DNA of 36,260 nucleotides from Rhodocyclaceae bacterium (GTDB lineage: Bacteria > Pseudomonadota > Gammaproteobacteria > Burkholderiales > Rhodocyclaceae), in contig JAGRFQ010000032.1 in NCBI GenBank assembly GCA_020445945.1, positions 1,513 through 37,772 of the forward strand, written 5' to 3'. Both the position numbers and the translations under genes were made by a program. The notes beneath the pieces were generated by a model that searched no databases, was not told the origin of the DNA, and saw only the letters and a list, made by a program, of their open reading frames with translations. Position 1 is the first letter of the stretch; every line of letters begins with the position of its first letter. This document shows positions 2,552-27,749 of this stretch, piece after piece.

Positions 2552-3567
2552 GCGCGCTGAAGATCGCCTTCGTGTCGTCGCACCCCAGCCTGCGCCGTTT
2601 CCGCCGCGACCCGTCCTACATCTACCGCTGCGAAAACCTCGGGCTGGCCTTGCAGCGCCTCGGCCACCGGGTGAGCTTCGTCCACCTCAAGGCGCTCCTG
2701 CTGCCGCGGCGCTTCGATGTCGCGGTGTTCCTGCGCCCGTCCGACGCGCTGCTCTACCGTCACGTGGTCGCCCGCCTTCGCCGGCAGGGGACCGTGCTGG
2801 TCGGCGATTGCGACGATCTGCTGTTCGACCCGGCCTGCGCCGCGTTCCGCCCCTCGGTCATCAACGGCAGCGCCGATCGTGACGAAACCGCGGCCAAGTT
2901 CCGCCGCCACCACGACGCGCTGGCCGCGCTCGACCGCTTCATTTTCTCCACCGAGGAACTATCCGATCGCTACCGGGCGCTCCACCCCGACGCCGCGGTC
3001 ACGATCCTCCCCAACGCGGTGCACAGCGGCTGGCGCGACATCGCCCCCAACCCCGCGCCGCCGCGCGTGCTGACCTACTTCAGCGGCACCCGCACCCACG
3101 ACCGCGACATCGCGCTGATCGCCGCGCCGCTGCAGCGCGTGCTCGACGCGCAGCCCGATCTGTCGGTGCAACTGGTCGGCCCGATCACCCCGCCGTTCAG
3201 CCATCCGCGGCTGCTCGTGCGCAAGAAGGTCGCCTTCACCGACTACCCCTACGTGCTGCGCGACAGCTATCTGAACCTCGCGCCACTCGAAGACACCCCC
3301 TTCAACCGCAGCAAATCCGCGCTCAAAGCCATCGAGCCGGGCTTCTTCGATGTGCCGACCATCGCCTCGCCGGTGGGCGACTTCACCCGCGTCGCCGTCG
3401 ACGGCGTGCGCTACGCCCGCGACGATGCCGAGTGGGAGGCGCAGATCGCCGCCGCCTGCGCACCCGAGCGCCACGCCCAACTGCGCCGCGGCCTGCGCCA
3501 GCGCATCCTCGCCCACGCCGACATCGACCGCTTCGCCGAGGCGTTCGTCCGTTTCGTCGCGCACTAG
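2548..3567 (+). CDS. Glycosyltransferase, GT4-like (surface glycan)
   Basis: A 339-residue soluble protein with a GT-B layout. The N-terminal half has KIAFVSSHPSL and an acidic patch (VGDCDDLLFD, residues 85-94). The C-terminal half starts near YFSGTRTHDRD (177-187) and has a donor-site region with NLAPLEDTPFNRSKSALK (243-260), where Lys256/Lys260 and Glu263 would contact nucleotide-sugar phosphates. This FSGT...APL.D..FN..KS pattern occurs in GT4-like enzymes of LPS and capsule clusters. The start ATG overlaps the ligase stop (ATGA), which implies coupled translation. The sugar and acceptor cannot be read from sequence. The next gene begins 16 bases after its stop. Confidence 0.7.
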   Translation: MSALKIAFVSSHPSLRRFRRDPSYIYRCENLGLALQRLGHRVSFVHLKALLLPRRFDVAVFLRPSDALLYRHVVARLRRQGTVLVGDCDDLLFDPACAAFRPSVINGSADRDETAAKFRRHHDALAALDRFIFSTEELSDRYRALHPDAAVTILPNAVHSGWRDIAPNPAPPRVLTYFSGTRTHDRDIALIAAPLQRVLDAQPDLSVQLVGPITPPFSHPRLLVRKKVAFTDYPYVLRDSYLNLAPLEDTPFNRSKSALKAIEPGFFDVPTIASPVGDFTRVAVDGVRYARDDAEWEAQIAAACAPERHAQLRRGLRQRILAHADIDRFAEAFVRFVAH

Positions 3568-23949: not shown

Positions 23950-24549
23950 ATGATCGGACGCCTGCACGGCACCCTGCTCGAAAAGACCCCGCCGCGCATC
24001 CTGCTCGACGTGGGCGGCGTCGGCTACGAAATCGACGTGCCGATGAGCACCTTCTACCCCCTCCCCGCCGTCGGCCAGGCGGTCACCCTGCACACCCATC
24101 TGGCGGTGCGCGAGGACGGCCACTTCCTCTACGGCTTCGCCACCGACGAAGAGCGCAGTGCCTTTCGCCAGCTCATCCGCGTCTCCGGCATCGGCGCGCG
24201 CACCGCGCTGGCGGTGCTCTCCGGCCTGTCGGTGGGCGAGCTGATCCAGGCCATCGCGCTGCAGGAGAGCGGGCGCATCGTCAAGGTGCCCGGCATCGGC
24301 AAGAAAACCGCCGAACGCCTGCTGCTGGAACTCAAGGACAAGCTCGCCCAGGCCCTGCCCCACGCCGCCGCCAGCCTCGCCGCACCGCCCGCCACGGCCC
24401 CCGACAGCGCCCAGAACGATATCCTCAACGCCTTGCTCGCGCTGGGCTACAACGAGCGTGAAGCGGCGCGTGCGACGAAGCCTCTGGCCGACGACATCGA
24501 CGTCGCCACCGGCATCCGCGAAGCGCTCAAGCTGCTCGCCAAAGCCTGA
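23950..24549 (+). CDS. ruvA: Holliday junction branch migration protein RuvA
   Basis: A 199-residue RuvA. It has the N-terminal OB-fold ([37 protein letters not shown]), the helix-hairpin-helix domain ([40 protein letters not shown]) and the mobile C-terminal domain that binds RuvB ([19 protein letters not shown]). It forms a tetramer on Holliday junctions. No ruvC lies upstream, and ruvB is about 1.5 kb downstream instead of adjacent. The stop overlaps the next ATG by one base. Confidence 0.97.
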
Positions 24550-25136
24550 TGAGCAGCGCAGCGCCGCAACCCCGCCAGGGCTTCCTGCGCAAGCTGCGCC
24601 TCGGCCCGCGCGTGCTCAAATGGGGCATCAACCTGTGGCCGCCCTTCCTCGGCGCCGGCATCCGGGTCACCCGCATCGCCGCCGATTTCGGCGAAGTCAC
24701 CGTCGCCCTGCGCATGGGCCTGTTCAACCGCAACTACGTCGGCACCCACTTCGGCGGCTCGCTGTTCTCGATGACCGACCCGTTCTTCATGCTGATGATG
24801 ATGCACCGCCTCGGCCGCGACTACGTGGTGTGGGACCGCGCCGCCACCATCGACTTCCTCCACCCCGCCAAGGGCACCGTCACCGCCCGCTTCGTGCTCG
24901 ACGCCGCGATGGTGGACGCCGTGCGCGAAGCCACCGCCCACGGCGAAAAACACCTGCCGACCTACACCGTCGAGGTCATCGACGCCGACGGCACGGTGTG
25001 CGCGCGGGTCGCGAAAACGCTGTATATCCGCAAGCACCCCCCTGGAAGAAGCGTGTCGGCAGATCTTACAAATGAGTCAAACGCACCACACGATATCCAC
25101 GAAAAAAAACACCAGATCAACAAGTTAACCATCTAG
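24549..25136 (+). CDS. DUF4442 / hotdog-fold thioesterase-like protein with an odd C-terminal tail
   Basis: A 195-residue protein. Residues 1 to about 160 match the DUF4442 (YiiD-C-type) hotdog family: LKWGINLWPPFLGAGIRV, VALRMGLFNRNYVGTHFGGSLFSMTDPFFMLMMM and the C-terminal VCARVAKTLYIRK. Such proteins are putative acyl-CoA thioesterases. The family normally ends just after this point. Here about 30 more residues follow (from PPGRSVSADL to KLTI), rich in Asn, His, Lys and Ile. They are encoded in DNA that turns sharply AT-rich from about 25060. This looks like a replaced 3' end produced when the following PEP-CTERM gene was inserted. The stop at 25134-25136 overlaps the -24 element of that gene's promoter. 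Confidence 0.75.
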   Translation: MSSAAPQPRQGFLRKLRLGPRVLKWGINLWPPFLGAGIRVTRIAADFGEVTVALRMGLFNRNYVGTHFGGSLFSMTDPFFMLMMMHRLGRDYVVWDRAATIDFLHPAKGTVTARFVLDAAMVDAVREATAHGEKHLPTYTVEVIDADGTVCARVAKTLYIRKHPPGRSVSADLTNESNAPHDIHEKKHQINKLTI

Positions 25137-25150
25137 GCACAGATTCTGCT
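25135..25150 (+). promoter_or_regulatory. Candidate sigma-54 (RpoN) promoter of the PEP-CTERM gene
   Basis: The sequence AGGCAC-AGATT-CTGCT matches the sigma-54 consensus TGGCAC-N5-TTGCW at all but two bases. The invariant GG (25136-25137) and GC (25148-25149) have the required spacing of 12. Transcription would start near 25160, giving a leader of about 25 bases with an AGGAG ribosome site at 25173-25177, 8 bases before the ATG. Sigma-54 control fits what is known of the PrsK/PrsR-RpoN regulation of PEP-CTERM genes in floc-forming betaproteobacteria. Confidence 0.65.
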
Positions 25151-25185
25151 TTTGTGGCCGCAAACACACACTAGGAGTATCTGCC

Positions 25186-25926
25186 ATGAAAAAACACGCT
25201 ATCGCCCTTTTGGTCGCCGCCGCTGGCACCAGCGCAGCGTTTGCCGCACCGGTTGATCTGAGCACTTGGACAAGTGAAGGGCCGGGCACTTGGAATGTCG
25301 CTGCCGACAACAACTCGGTTCTGCAAACAGTCAATGGAAGCCCGACTGTGTTCTATTCGGCCGGCAACGAACAGGGCAAACAACTCTCCGGCAAGATCAA
25401 GGTTGAAACGACCGGCGATGACGACTACATCGGGTTTGTGCTTGGCTACCAAGCCGGAGATGCTGCGTCCAGCAGCACCGACTTCATCCTGATCGACTGG
25501 AAGCAGGCCAACCAGGGCAGCTACGGATGCACGGCCTTTGCCGGCCTGTCGATTTCTCATGTCAGCGGTGGATTACCCGAAGCTGCGGCGTCATGGTGCC
25601 ACAATGGCACAACGACGGAACTGGCACGCGGGCTTAACCTTGGTAGCACCGGCTGGTCAGACAACACCGAGTATGCTTTCGACCTGATTTTCACCGCGTC
25701 TAACATTCAAGTGTTTGTCGATGGCGTCAAGGAACTGGACATCAACGGCAGCTTTGCTGACGGCGCCTTTGGCTTCTACAACTATTCCCAATCAACGGTG
25801 CGTTACTCGGCAATCGAAGAAGCGGCGGCGCCGCCCCCGAACGGCAACCCGATGCCCGAACCAACGAGCATGCTGTTGGTGGGTGCGGCATTGGCCGCGA
25901 TGGGTGTCACGCGTCGTCGCAAGTAA
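25186..25926 (+). CDS. PEP-CTERM protein with a thrombospondin C-terminal-like domain
   Basis: A 246-residue exported protein. It has a signal peptide (1-20, KK then a hydrophobic core ending AAFA). A beta-sandwich region at about 25-212 follows thrombospondin C-terminal (TSP_C) landmarks in order: YIGFVLGYQ (81-89), IDWKQ (103-107), GLSISHV (120-126), GSTGWSDNTEYAFDL (153-167), IQVFVDG (174-180) and the end DGAFGFYNYSQSTVRYS (192-208). Then come a Pro-rich linker and a sorting signal MPEP (223-226), hydrophobic helix and RRRK end. In thrombospondins this domain is a calcium-rich lectin-like sandwich. Cys115 and Cys138 could form a disulfide. The protein is probably exosortase-processed and placed in the exopolysaccharide matrix. 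GC content is lower than in its neighbours, and it has its own promoter and terminator between ruvA and ruvB. Confidence 0.85.
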   Translation: MKKHAIALLVAAAGTSAAFAAPVDLSTWTSEGPGTWNVAADNNSVLQTVNGSPTVFYSAGNEQGKQLSGKIKVETTGDDDYIGFVLGYQAGDAASSSTDFILIDWKQANQGSYGCTAFAGLSISHVSGGLPEAAASWCHNGTTTELARGLNLGSTGWSDNTEYAFDLIFTASNIQVFVDGVKELDINGSFADGAFGFYNYSQSTVRYSAIEEAAAPPPNGNPMPEPTSMLLVGAALAAMGVTRRRK

Positions 25927-25944
25927 CACACGCACCACGGACTG

Positions 25945-25973
25945 AAAAAGCGCCCACCGTCGGGCGCTTTTTT
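25945..25973 (+). terminator. Rho-independent terminator after the PEP-CTERM gene
   Basis: An 11-bp stem (AAAAAGCGCCC at 25945-25955 with GGGCGCTTTTT at 25962-25972) with a 6-base loop, ending in a run of six T. It lies 18 bases after the stop and would keep the sigma-54 transcript from running into ruvB. The A-run on the left arm could let it work on the other strand as well. Confidence 0.9.
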
Positions 25974-26028
25974 GTTTGTCGCCCAGATGTCGCACCCGGG
26001 GAAAAGCACCATCCGTTACACTGCGGCC

Positions 26029-27084
26029 ATGATCGAGATCGACAAACTCCACAGTGGCGCCGAGCGCCTGATTGCGCCGCAGACCGCGAGCAAGCAGGAA
26101 GACGCCATCGAGCGCGCGCTGCGGCCAAAACGGCTGACGGACTACGTCGGGCAGCTCAAGATCCGCGAGCAACTGGAGATTTTCATCTCCGCCGCGCGCG
26201 GCCGCGGCGAAGCGCTCGACCACGTGCTGCTGTTCGGCCCGCCGGGGCTGGGCAAGACCACGCTGGCGCACATCGTCGCCGCCGAGATGGGCGTCAATCT
26301 GCGCCAGACCTCGGGCCCGGTGCTGGAGCGCGCCGGCGATCTGGCGGCGTTGCTGACCAATCTCGAGCCGCACGACGTGCTGTTCATCGACGAGATCCAC
26401 CGCCTCTCGCCGGTGGTGGAGGAGATCCTCTACCCGGCGCTGGAAGACTTCCAGATCGACATCATGATCGGCGAGGGGCCGGCGGCGCGCTCGGTCAAGC
26501 TCGACCTGCCGCCCTTCACGCTGGTCGGCGCCACCACCCGCGCCGGCATGCTCACCAACCCGCTGCGCGACCGCTTCGGCATCGTCTCGCGGCTGGAGTT
26601 CTACACCCCGGCCGAGCTCGCCACCATCGTCAGCCGCTCATCCGGCCTGCTCAATGTCGACATCGACGACGCCGGCGCGATCGAAATCGCGCGTCGCGCG
26701 CGCGGCACCCCGCGCATCGCCAACCGCCTGCTGCGCCGCGTGCGCGACTACGCCGAGGTCAAGGCCGACGGCCACATCTCCTCGCCGGTGGCCGACGCCG
26801 CACTGCGCATGCTCGACGTCGACGCGCTGGGGCTCGACGTGATGGACCGCAAACTGCTCGGCGCGATGCTCGAAAAATTCGGCGGCGGCCCGGTCGGGCT
26901 CGACAACCTCGCCGCAGCCATCGGCGAATCGACCGACACCATCGAAGACGTGCTCGAACCCTACCTCATCCAGCAAGGCTACCTGCAGCGCACCCCGCGC
27001 GGACGCGTCGCCACCCCCGCCATCTGGCAGCATTTCGGGCTGGCGCCGCCCGGCGCGGCGACGGACCTGTTTGCCGGGCGCTGA
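26029..27084 (+). CDS. ruvB: Holliday junction branch migration ATPase RuvB
   Basis: A 351-residue AAA+ motor. It has Walker [10 protein letters not shown] (70-78), Walker [10 protein letters not shown] (Asp121, Glu122), sensor 1 [10 protein letters not shown], the Arg finger region NPLRDRFG and sensor 2 [15 protein letters not shown], then the C-terminal winged helix ending [11 protein letters not shown]. It drives branch migration with RuvA. The ATG at 26029 follows a TACACT box (26017-26022) by six bases with no ribosome site, so the mRNA may be leaderless. Its own promoter is expected, because a terminator separates it from the upstream PEP-CTERM gene. Confidence 0.97.
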
Positions 27085-27089
27085 GGGCG

Positions 27090-27749
27090 ATGAACGCTGT
27101 CGACCTGCCCGCGCTGATCGCCGCCAGCGCCGCCCTCCTGGCCGGCCTGCTCATCTGGCGCCACCGGGCGCGCAGGCAGCGGCGTCATTTCATCGCGCAG
27201 TTCGACTATGCCCGCCTGCTCGACGCCCGCCTCGCCAAACGCCGCCCGGAGCTGAGCGCAACGCAGCGCCGGCAAGTGCTCGACGCCCTGCGCGACTGGT
27301 TCCTGATCTCCAAAGCCGCCGGTCGGCGCAAGCTCGCCATGCCCTCGCAGGCGGTCGATGACGCCTGGCACGAGTTCATCCTGTTTACCCGCAACTATCA
27401 GGACTTCTGCCGCAAGGGGCTGCGCCGTTTTCTGCATCATGTACCGGCCGAAGCGATGGCCTCGCCCACCGCCGCGCAGGACGGCCTGCGCCGCACCTGG
27501 CGGCTGGCCTGCCGCCACGAGGGCATCGACCCCAAAGCGGCCACCCGGCTGCCGCTGCTCTTTGCGCTCGACACCGCGCTGGGGCTGAGCGACGGCTTCC
27601 GCTACCAGCTCGACTGCCTCAAGGCCGGCGCGGCCGGCAACGGCGTGTACTGCGCCAGCCACATCGGCTGCGGCGGCGGATGCAGCAGCGGGAGCGATGG
27701 GGACGCCGGCTGCGGCAGCAGTTGCGGCGGTGGTTGCGGCGGCGATTGA
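27090..27749 (+). CDS. Membrane-anchored protein with a Gly/Cys-rich tail (glycine-rich domain-containing protein-like)
   Basis: A 219-residue protein. It has one N-terminal membrane segment (about 6-24) followed by a very basic stretch (RHRARRQRRH). A helical middle part contains VDDAWHEFILFTRNYQDFC (89-107) and RRFLHHVPAEAM. The WHxF..FTR.Y..FC pattern is reminiscent of plant glycine-rich domain proteins (GRDP) and their bacterial relatives. The last ~32 residues are almost only Gly, Ser, Asp and six Cys (CGGGC...CGSSCGGGC), which looks like a metal-binding or disulfide-rich tail. The function is not known. It starts 5 bases after ruvB. A DUF2249 protein with a similar tail lies at 28832. 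Confidence 0.7.
   Translation: MNAVDLPALIAASAALLAGLLIWRHRARRQRRHFIAQFDYARLLDARLAKRRPELSATQRRQVLDALRDWFLISKAAGRRKLAMPSQAVDDAWHEFILFTRNYQDFCRKGLRRFLHHVPAEAMASPTAAQDGLRRTWRLACRHEGIDPKAATRLPLLFALDTALGLSDGFRYQLDCLKAGAAGNGVYCASHIGCGGGCSSGSDGDAGCGSSCGGGCGGD

Follow-up and report, generated by a model that had tools for sequence, protein, structure and literature searches.

A thrombospondin C-terminal-type PEP-CTERM protein of a Rhodocyclaceae bacterium as a putative matrix component under probable PrsR and sigma-54 control

The stretch of DNA analysed in the present study (hereafter the window; 36,260 nucleotides from a Rhodocyclaceae genome) contains an inserted single-gene unit encoding a secreted-type protein with a thrombospondin C-terminal (TSP_C) domain and a PEP-CTERM tail. 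It seems, with a probability of about 0.75, that the product is an exosortase-sorted, putatively calcium-binding protein of the exopolysaccharide matrix and belongs to the PrsK-PrsR/sigma-54 regulon as an accessory member. The computational analysis established the domain, its predicted fold, the sorting tag, the partner genes, the enhancer with its promoter, and the insertion. The overall result agrees with an earlier sequence-only reading of the window as regards the TSP_C domain, the fold, the partner genes and the insert.

The Gene and Its Product

The source genome is a 3.1-Mb draft, 87% complete, and the window lies within its contig C72. The gene (25186..25926, plus strand) was delimited by its open reading frame and profile searches and encodes a protein of 246 amino acids. 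The protein has a signal-peptide-like start, recognised by eye and by a predicted helix, a TSP_C (L-type-lectin-like) domain at residues 35-211 (25288..25818, plus strand) and a PEP-CTERM exosortase sorting signal at residues 224-246 (25855..25923, plus strand). The domain matched Pfam PF05735 with 49.8 bits against a cut-off of 25.6, covering positions 5-193 of the 198 in the profile, and so passed the profile search that had been proposed as a check; its jelly roll, similar to that of 1ux6, also places it in the Pfam TSP_C family. The tail scored 19.9 bits with TIGR02595 (cut-off 16), the only NCBIfam model above its cut-off for this protein, and 20.8 bits with PF07589 (cut-off 20.7), and AlphaFold2 predicted a C-terminal helix at residues 228-245. 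These scores, together with an exosortase encoded in the genome, assign the product to the PEP-CTERM proteins. The order of TSP_C landmarks and the PEP-CTERM tail that had been read from the letters were recovered at the same positions. Beyond the signal, the domain and the tag, the Pfam search at E values up to 1 found no further domain. The protein is the sole TSP_C match found in its own genome, where it is one of 26 PEP-CTERM matches above cut-off.

Relation to Animal Thrombospondins

A phmmer search of PDB sequences placed thrombospondin-1 (E 1.7e-10), two thrombospondin-2 entries and COMP on top, followed by one TetR regulator with an E value of 0.007. The AlphaFold2 model, built on an alignment of 61 rows, had a pLDDT of 92.9 and a pTM of 0.85. 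The four best PDB chains found with this model by Foldseek were thrombospondin-2 (two entries), COMP and thrombospondin-1, with E values from 3.1e-13 to 1.7e-11 and query-normalised TM-scores of 0.64-0.66, so that structure prediction, the second check proposed, bore out the supposed fold. In the reverse direction, an HMM of the bacterial family found human thrombospondin-1 (TSP-1) and thrombospondin-2 (TSP-2) with 86 bits. Jelly-roll domains are common, and Foldseek found 453 PDB chains similar to the model with E ≤0.001, which might suggest that the likeness has arisen by convergence among such folds. However, the phmmer match extends across the whole domain, the DDDYxGFVxGYQ stretch is in register, and the reverse search is also positive. 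Convergence was rejected because sequence homology holds in both search directions, and it is considered highly improbable.

The C-terminal L-lectin-like domain of the animal thrombospondins (TSP-1 1ux6, TSP-2 1yo8, COMP 3fby) is thus homologous to the domain of the window protein by both sequence and predicted fold, and the two share the DDD, GFVxGYQ, WKQ, GW.D and SQ landmarks. Unlike thrombospondins proper, in which EGF-like domains and type 3 repeats precede the C-terminal domain, the window protein consists of a single domain carrying a bacterial sorting tag, and no EGF domains, type 3 repeats or coiled coil were found in it.

Below the thrombospondins, Foldseek ranked CBM66 carbohydrate modules, and the matches after these include L-type lectins and glucanases. 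This brings in the idea of a plain carbohydrate-binding module directed to the cell's own exopolysaccharide or to a foreign glycan, the likeness to thrombospondins reflecting a shared lectin-like ancestry that implies no self-association. CBM66 chains come next after the thrombospondins, with TM-scores of 0.78-0.82 when normalised by the shorter target and 0.54-0.55 by the query, L-type lectins such as VIP36 appear further down among the fold matches, and the conserved W36, W105 and W157, with the invariant NYSQ, could line a sugar site. Nevertheless, the CBM66 matches have only 11-12% identity and E values of 3e-8 to 2e-7, behind those of the thrombospondins; the conservation of W105 and NYSQ is partly owed to the search seeds; and the protein retains the DDD motif, a site that serves matrix deposition in animals. 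A plain carbohydrate module therefore appears to be a possible but less favoured reading, with the odds clearly against it.

The DDD Motif

The DDD motif occupies residues 78-80 (25417..25425, plus strand) and was located by alignment to the calcium-coordinating DDD of thrombospondins, with D78-D80 in register with the human motif. According to the relevant passages of PMC6526912 and PMC6249252, this motif in thrombospondins is a calcium ligand and controls how the proteins are deposited in the matrix, through direct contact between thrombospondin molecules. The passages of PMC6526912 dealing with its origin put the motif within early animals; the main text of this paper, which deals with how the thrombospondin superfamily arose, contains no word starting with "bacteri" or "prokaryot".

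In the alignment of 61 bacterial rows (A1), D78 and D80 are present in all 61 rows and D79 in 58, with N in the other three. The column was checked in the 94 distinct domains that an HMM search had collected, of which 92 are bacterial and 2 human; the bacterial domains comprised 85 with DDD and 7 with DND, and both human domains have DDD. Another set, of 15 loci collected with the Pfam profile and partly overlapping with the genomes of the other set, showed D[DN]D in 12; it was absent in L019, L020 and L179, which are two partial matches and one match below cut-off. DDD lies outside all six search seeds. Two of the seeds, IDWKQANQ and FGFYNYSQ, cover other invariant columns, the conservation of which is therefore inflated. 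Position 104 is D in 61/61 bacterial rows and M in both human proteins, and Q110 is Q in 59 of the 61 rows. If the numbering is counted from the presumed end of the chain, Q110 is aligned with Q1027 of TSP-1. Q1027 is named beside the calcium site in the corresponding passage of PMC6526912. The animal motif works in trimers or pentamers and together with type 3 repeats, whereas the window protein has neither. As judged from the alignment, D78-D80 are predicted to bind calcium.

The Bacterial TSP_C Family

The fold had been described in the sequence-only reading as mainly known from animals, which proved incorrect: 168 bacterial relatives were counted in one scan of genome contigs, and 80 of them were kept. 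According to the tree labels, the relatives belong mostly to the Alpha-, Beta- and Gammaproteobacteria, and also to the Cyanobacteriota, Bacteroidota, Calditrichota, Actinomycetota, Acidobacteriota, Bacillota, Myxococcota and Thermodesulfobacteriota. An open reading frame of 200-300 residues with a fitting start was found for 66 of the 80 kept relatives, and 11 are large multi-domain proteins. At a Pfam E value of 0.001, all 61 rows of the A1 alignment matched TSP_C and 37 matched PEP-CTERM; with NCBIfam models, PEP-CTERM (TIGR02595) was matched by 27 rows, VPLPA-CTERM by 11 and PEPxxWA-CTERM by 8, these counts possibly overlapping and being given with no cut-off status. An Acidobacteriota bin (L099) contains four TSP_C domains within one very long frame. 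Just 3' of the TSP_C gene at L049, a group I intron (2881-3148) adjoins a run of tRNA genes.

The domain is sparsely distributed, being present in 9/395 genomes of the family sample and 8/398 of the phylum sample, with the source genome included in both; no match was found in the nine other genomes of the genus. In the phylum sample, an exosortase was detected in 8/8 genomes with TSP_C, compared with 82/398 overall, giving a p value of 2.4e-6 that is too small because the source genome is counted, G781 and G783 are near-copies, and G661 is below the TSP_C cut-off.

The phylogenetic tree placed the window protein in a cluster (support 99/95) with the two Thauera sequences and that of a further genome of the same taxonomic family, to which Thauera terpenica (L021) and the source genome both belong. 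This topology indicates that the gene was acquired within the family, or was retained here and lost elsewhere. Another genome of the family (G299, locus L013) encodes a TSP_C protein that scored 97 bits, much nearer to the Pfam profile than the window protein, and that clusters apart from it with proteins of Thiotrichaceae and Desulfobulbaceae. In the midpoint-rooted tree, the two human domains are on a branch of length 2.87 and weakly placed (72/77), so the tree gives no direction of transfer between animals and bacteria.

Among the matches listed for the open-licence PMC literature, no title was devoted to the bacterial TSP_C family. In the passages of that literature which mention PEP-CTERM and thrombospondin together, the subject is a riboswitch-linked gene (PMC12530212) or otherwise type 3 repeats.

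Insertion Site and Gene Neighbourhood

The gene was supposed to be lodged between ruvA and ruvB. This was correct for the ruvB side (26029..27084, plus strand; NF000868, 539 bits) but not for the ruvA side, since ruvA (23950..24549, plus strand; RuvA_N, HHH_5 and RuvA_C above cut-off) is separated from it by a DUF4442 gene (24549..25136, plus strand; PF14539, 87.6 bits). Ten genomes of the genus, including the source genome, were compared; eight have a DUF4442 match and two have none. In five of the nine congeners (L104-L108), the DUF4442 gene is followed by ruvB within at most about 50 nt. The empty site shows that a single-gene unit of about 0.97 kb has been inserted, in agreement with the self-contained insert proposed from the sequence. 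The unit spans 25040..26009 (plus strand), with its left border uncertain by about 10 nt, and it also stands out by base composition: the GC content is 0.56 for 25045-26005 and 0.685 for the window. The sequence CATCCGTTA(A/C)ACT stands before ruvB, at 26010.

The DUF4442 protein comprises 195 amino acids here, compared with 170-171 in two congeners. The insert replaced the end of the gene and added about 30 codons, the last of the reading frame, so that the enhancer described below sits inside the DUF4442 frame. The new tail (25040-25136) overlaps the enhancer and extends to the promoter. An intrinsic terminator of 11 perfect pairs (25945..25972, plus strand) follows the TSP_C gene, as had been supposed; the segment 25936-25985 folds at -24.2 kcal/mol with a z-score of -4.1, and a simple terminator scanner gave no call there.

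No long perfect repeats were found at the insert borders. Within 24990-26060, the repeats found were a direct pair of 12 nt (25078 and 25927, 92%) and four inverted pairs, among them the terminator. The window protein had no PHROGs match at E 0.1. In two other congeners, the gap between DUF4442 and ruvB contains different single frames, one of 165 amino acids that is acetyltransferase-like by eye (L102, 2062-2559) and one of about 140-160 amino acids (L103, 1944-2426). It seems that this spot takes up single genes repeatedly. The neighbourhood of the gene is not conserved in the family: none of the 1224 neighbouring frames of at least 120 amino acids at L021-L100 was related to frames in more than five other loci, and tblastn found no RuvA, DUF4442 or RuvB in the flanks (up to 5 kb or 1.5 kb) of the other loci L002-L100. 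Behind ruvB in the window, a frame of 219 amino acids (27090-27749) ends in a Cys/Gly-rich stretch and matched nothing in Pfam at E 1.

Predicted PrsR/Sigma-54 Control Region

A sigma-54 -24/-12 element, AGGCACAGATTCTGCT, is located at 25135..25150 (plus strand) and has the exact GG-N10-GC spacing that had been pointed out. It scored 9 of 12, with A in place of the first T; the sites of Thauera terpenica (L021) and another Thauera (L022) scored 12 and 11 and lie at the same distance from the start codon, the site-to-ATG values being -52, -51 and, in the window, -51. The element alone was dropped as proof, as the genome-wide count of the loose pattern GGCAYRNNNNYTGCW is 34, no more than twice the 17 occurrences of the reversed control. 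The identical 15-mer is present once elsewhere (C30:7369), in the first codons of a frame with a start that is lipoprotein-like by eye.

The element gains significance from a PrsR-type enhancer, TGTCGGCAGATCTTACA, located 64 nt upstream (25054..25070, plus strand), which was absent from the sequence-only reading and was identified by a motif scan as motif 1 of PMC1569441. In the sections of that paper on promoters (Haft and others 2006), a 17-nt motif ending in TTTACA is followed by a spacer of 62.8 nt (SD 10.6) and a sigma-54 site, and the arrangement precedes 99/167 proteobacterial PEP-CTERM genes. The window resembles the published system in an enhancer ending in TTACA 64 nt before the -24/-12 site and in a single-gene transcription unit. 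It differs in that the sites described there are never inside a coding region in PEP-CTERM genomes, whereas the window enhancer is inside the 3' end of the neighbouring gene. Motif 1, a spacer within 32-92 nt, motif 2 and a prsR gene in the genome make the window gene a probable member of the PrsR/sigma-54 regulon.

Both motifs were combined in a joint score with a maximum of 27 and a threshold of 20. The window scored 22, a value that is partly circular because the enhancer consensus was derived from the window together with three more sites in the same genome and was written after these had been viewed; the scores of the relatives are free of this. The threshold was reached by 24/75 rows of relatives, compared with 6/4255 tiles of flanking sequence, two genomes being doubled among the rows (L015/L021 with the element and L016/L036 without it); the joint-score scan found no element in the other 51 rows. 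In the source genome, 11/30 PEP-CTERM match rows, including the window, reached 20, whereas on contig C37 the control tiles of 750 nt did so in 2/104 cases, and one of these two is a PEP-CTERM gene's true site. The distribution of prsR follows that of the element among the 50 genomes tested: prsR was above cut-off in 13/15 genomes with the element and 10/35 without it (one-sided Fisher p 1.9e-4). Ten genomes thus possess prsR with no element detected before the TSP_C gene, and two metagenome bins (L054 and L061) have the element with no prsR found.

The promoter score bears on another view of the insert, namely that it is a recent passenger of no use, a single-gene unit behind DUF4442 that is poorly expressed from a drifted promoter. 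The drop to 9 of 12 from the 12 and 11 of the Thauera relatives would fit this, as would the empty site in five congeners and the lack of a match in the nine other genus genomes. Against it, nothing in the open frame, signal, tag, enhancer or terminator is disrupted, the distance from enhancer to promoter agrees with the published mean spacer, and the partner genes are present. A useless passenger is thus unlikely, and a functional member of the regulon is the preferred reading.

Riboswitch Control in Other Relatives

A different type of control was found elsewhere in the family. The Rfam search detected a c-di-GMP-I riboswitch before the TSP_C gene, on the strand of the gene, in 6/69 relatives, with 16-66 nt between the end of the riboswitch and the start codon. 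The rows represent about two lineages because five of them (L029, L032, L034, L038 and L043) are from Methylophaga or its family; the sixth, L074, is from a deltaproteobacterial bin. All six are below 20 in the joint score and thus without the PrsR element, and prsR was not found in the five of them that were tested. No riboswitch was found in the window. Five more c-di-GMP-I matches, on the other strand, are present at L029, L034, L038 and L043, indicating clusters of c-di-GMP-controlled genes at these loci.

In Table 4 of PMC12530212, a c-di-GMP riboswitch is listed beside a "thrombospondin" gene of Methylophaga nitratireducenticrescens, and the accompanying results give 10/11 riboswitches as higher in biofilm samples. 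That gene is under other control and in another organism than the window gene, and its domain is undescribed in those parts of the paper. It probably belongs to the same family, as four Methylophaga relatives in the present set have the riboswitch before a TSP_C gene. Two unrelated controls of the exopolysaccharide or biofilm type before the same domain lend independent support to a role in the matrix.

Partner Genes and Known PEP-CTERM Systems

The partners that had been named for a genome search, rpoN, prsK, prsR and an exosortase, and also prsT, are all encoded in the source genome with scores above cut-off: PrsK 848, PrsR 745, PrsT 804, RpoN 482 and exosortase A (XrtA) 336.7 bits, the last against a cut-off of 208. 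Contig C37 carries a PEP-CTERM-type EpsB glycosyltransferase gene, prsK, prsR and prsT in a row, C86 carries the gene for exosortase A, a protein with an EpsI domain, and C104 carries rpoN. The sorting tag, exosortase A and PrsK/PrsR/PrsT are shared with the PEP-CTERM/exosortase system as set out in the corresponding sections of PMC1569441; the word thrombospondin is absent from its main text.

The PepA protein (NF033554; pepA of Aquincola, PMC9850573) is similar as a secreted PEP-CTERM protein with a sigma-54 promoter and, from its published description, a similar length. The window protein is not PepA by this model because it scored 23.5 bits against a cut-off of 80. According to the promoter and overexpression results of PMC9850573, transcripts of an Aquincola PEP-CTERM gene start at a TGGCAC/CTGCTT sigma-54 site in an RpoN1-dependent manner, and PepA overexpression in an rpoN1 mutant restored flocs, lowered soluble and raised bound polysaccharide, and left biofilm and swarming unrestored. 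By analogy, the window protein should help to bind polysaccharide to cells.

Proposed Function and Significance

A signal through PrsK would cause PrsR to bind the enhancer at 25054-25070 and to drive the RpoN polymerase from 25135; the transcript would cover this one gene and end at the terminator by 25972. The signal peptide would export the protein and the PEP-CTERM helix would keep it in the inner membrane until exosortase A cuts it and hands it on to join the exopolysaccharide. In the matrix, the lectin-like domain would hold calcium at D78-D80 and may associate with itself or with polysaccharide, helping to keep the matrix together. From the homology and the genetic context, we infer that the domain binds calcium, that it associates with itself or binds sugar, and that the protein acts in the matrix.

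A further and more tentative proposal, doubtful at present, is that the thrombospondin matrix module is not only homologous to the bacterial family but does the same calcium-dependent job in the matrix, placed in each lineage under its own regulator (PrsR or the c-di-GMP riboswitch). If this is true, the DDD motif is older than animals or has crossed between bacteria and animals, and bacterial slime and animal tissue may have one calcium-binding matrix part in common.

As long as no structural module is known, it is difficult to test what PEP-CTERM proteins do in flocs and biofilms. The bacterial TSP_C family offers a fold whose chemistry is known, with a single named motif that can be altered, and the two unrelated biofilm-type controls before the same domain make the matrix role directly testable. 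The thrombospondin-type domain, DDD included, is now placed in several bacterial phyla, and the question of a matrix module shared by animals and bacteria can be addressed with a domain of about 190 residues.
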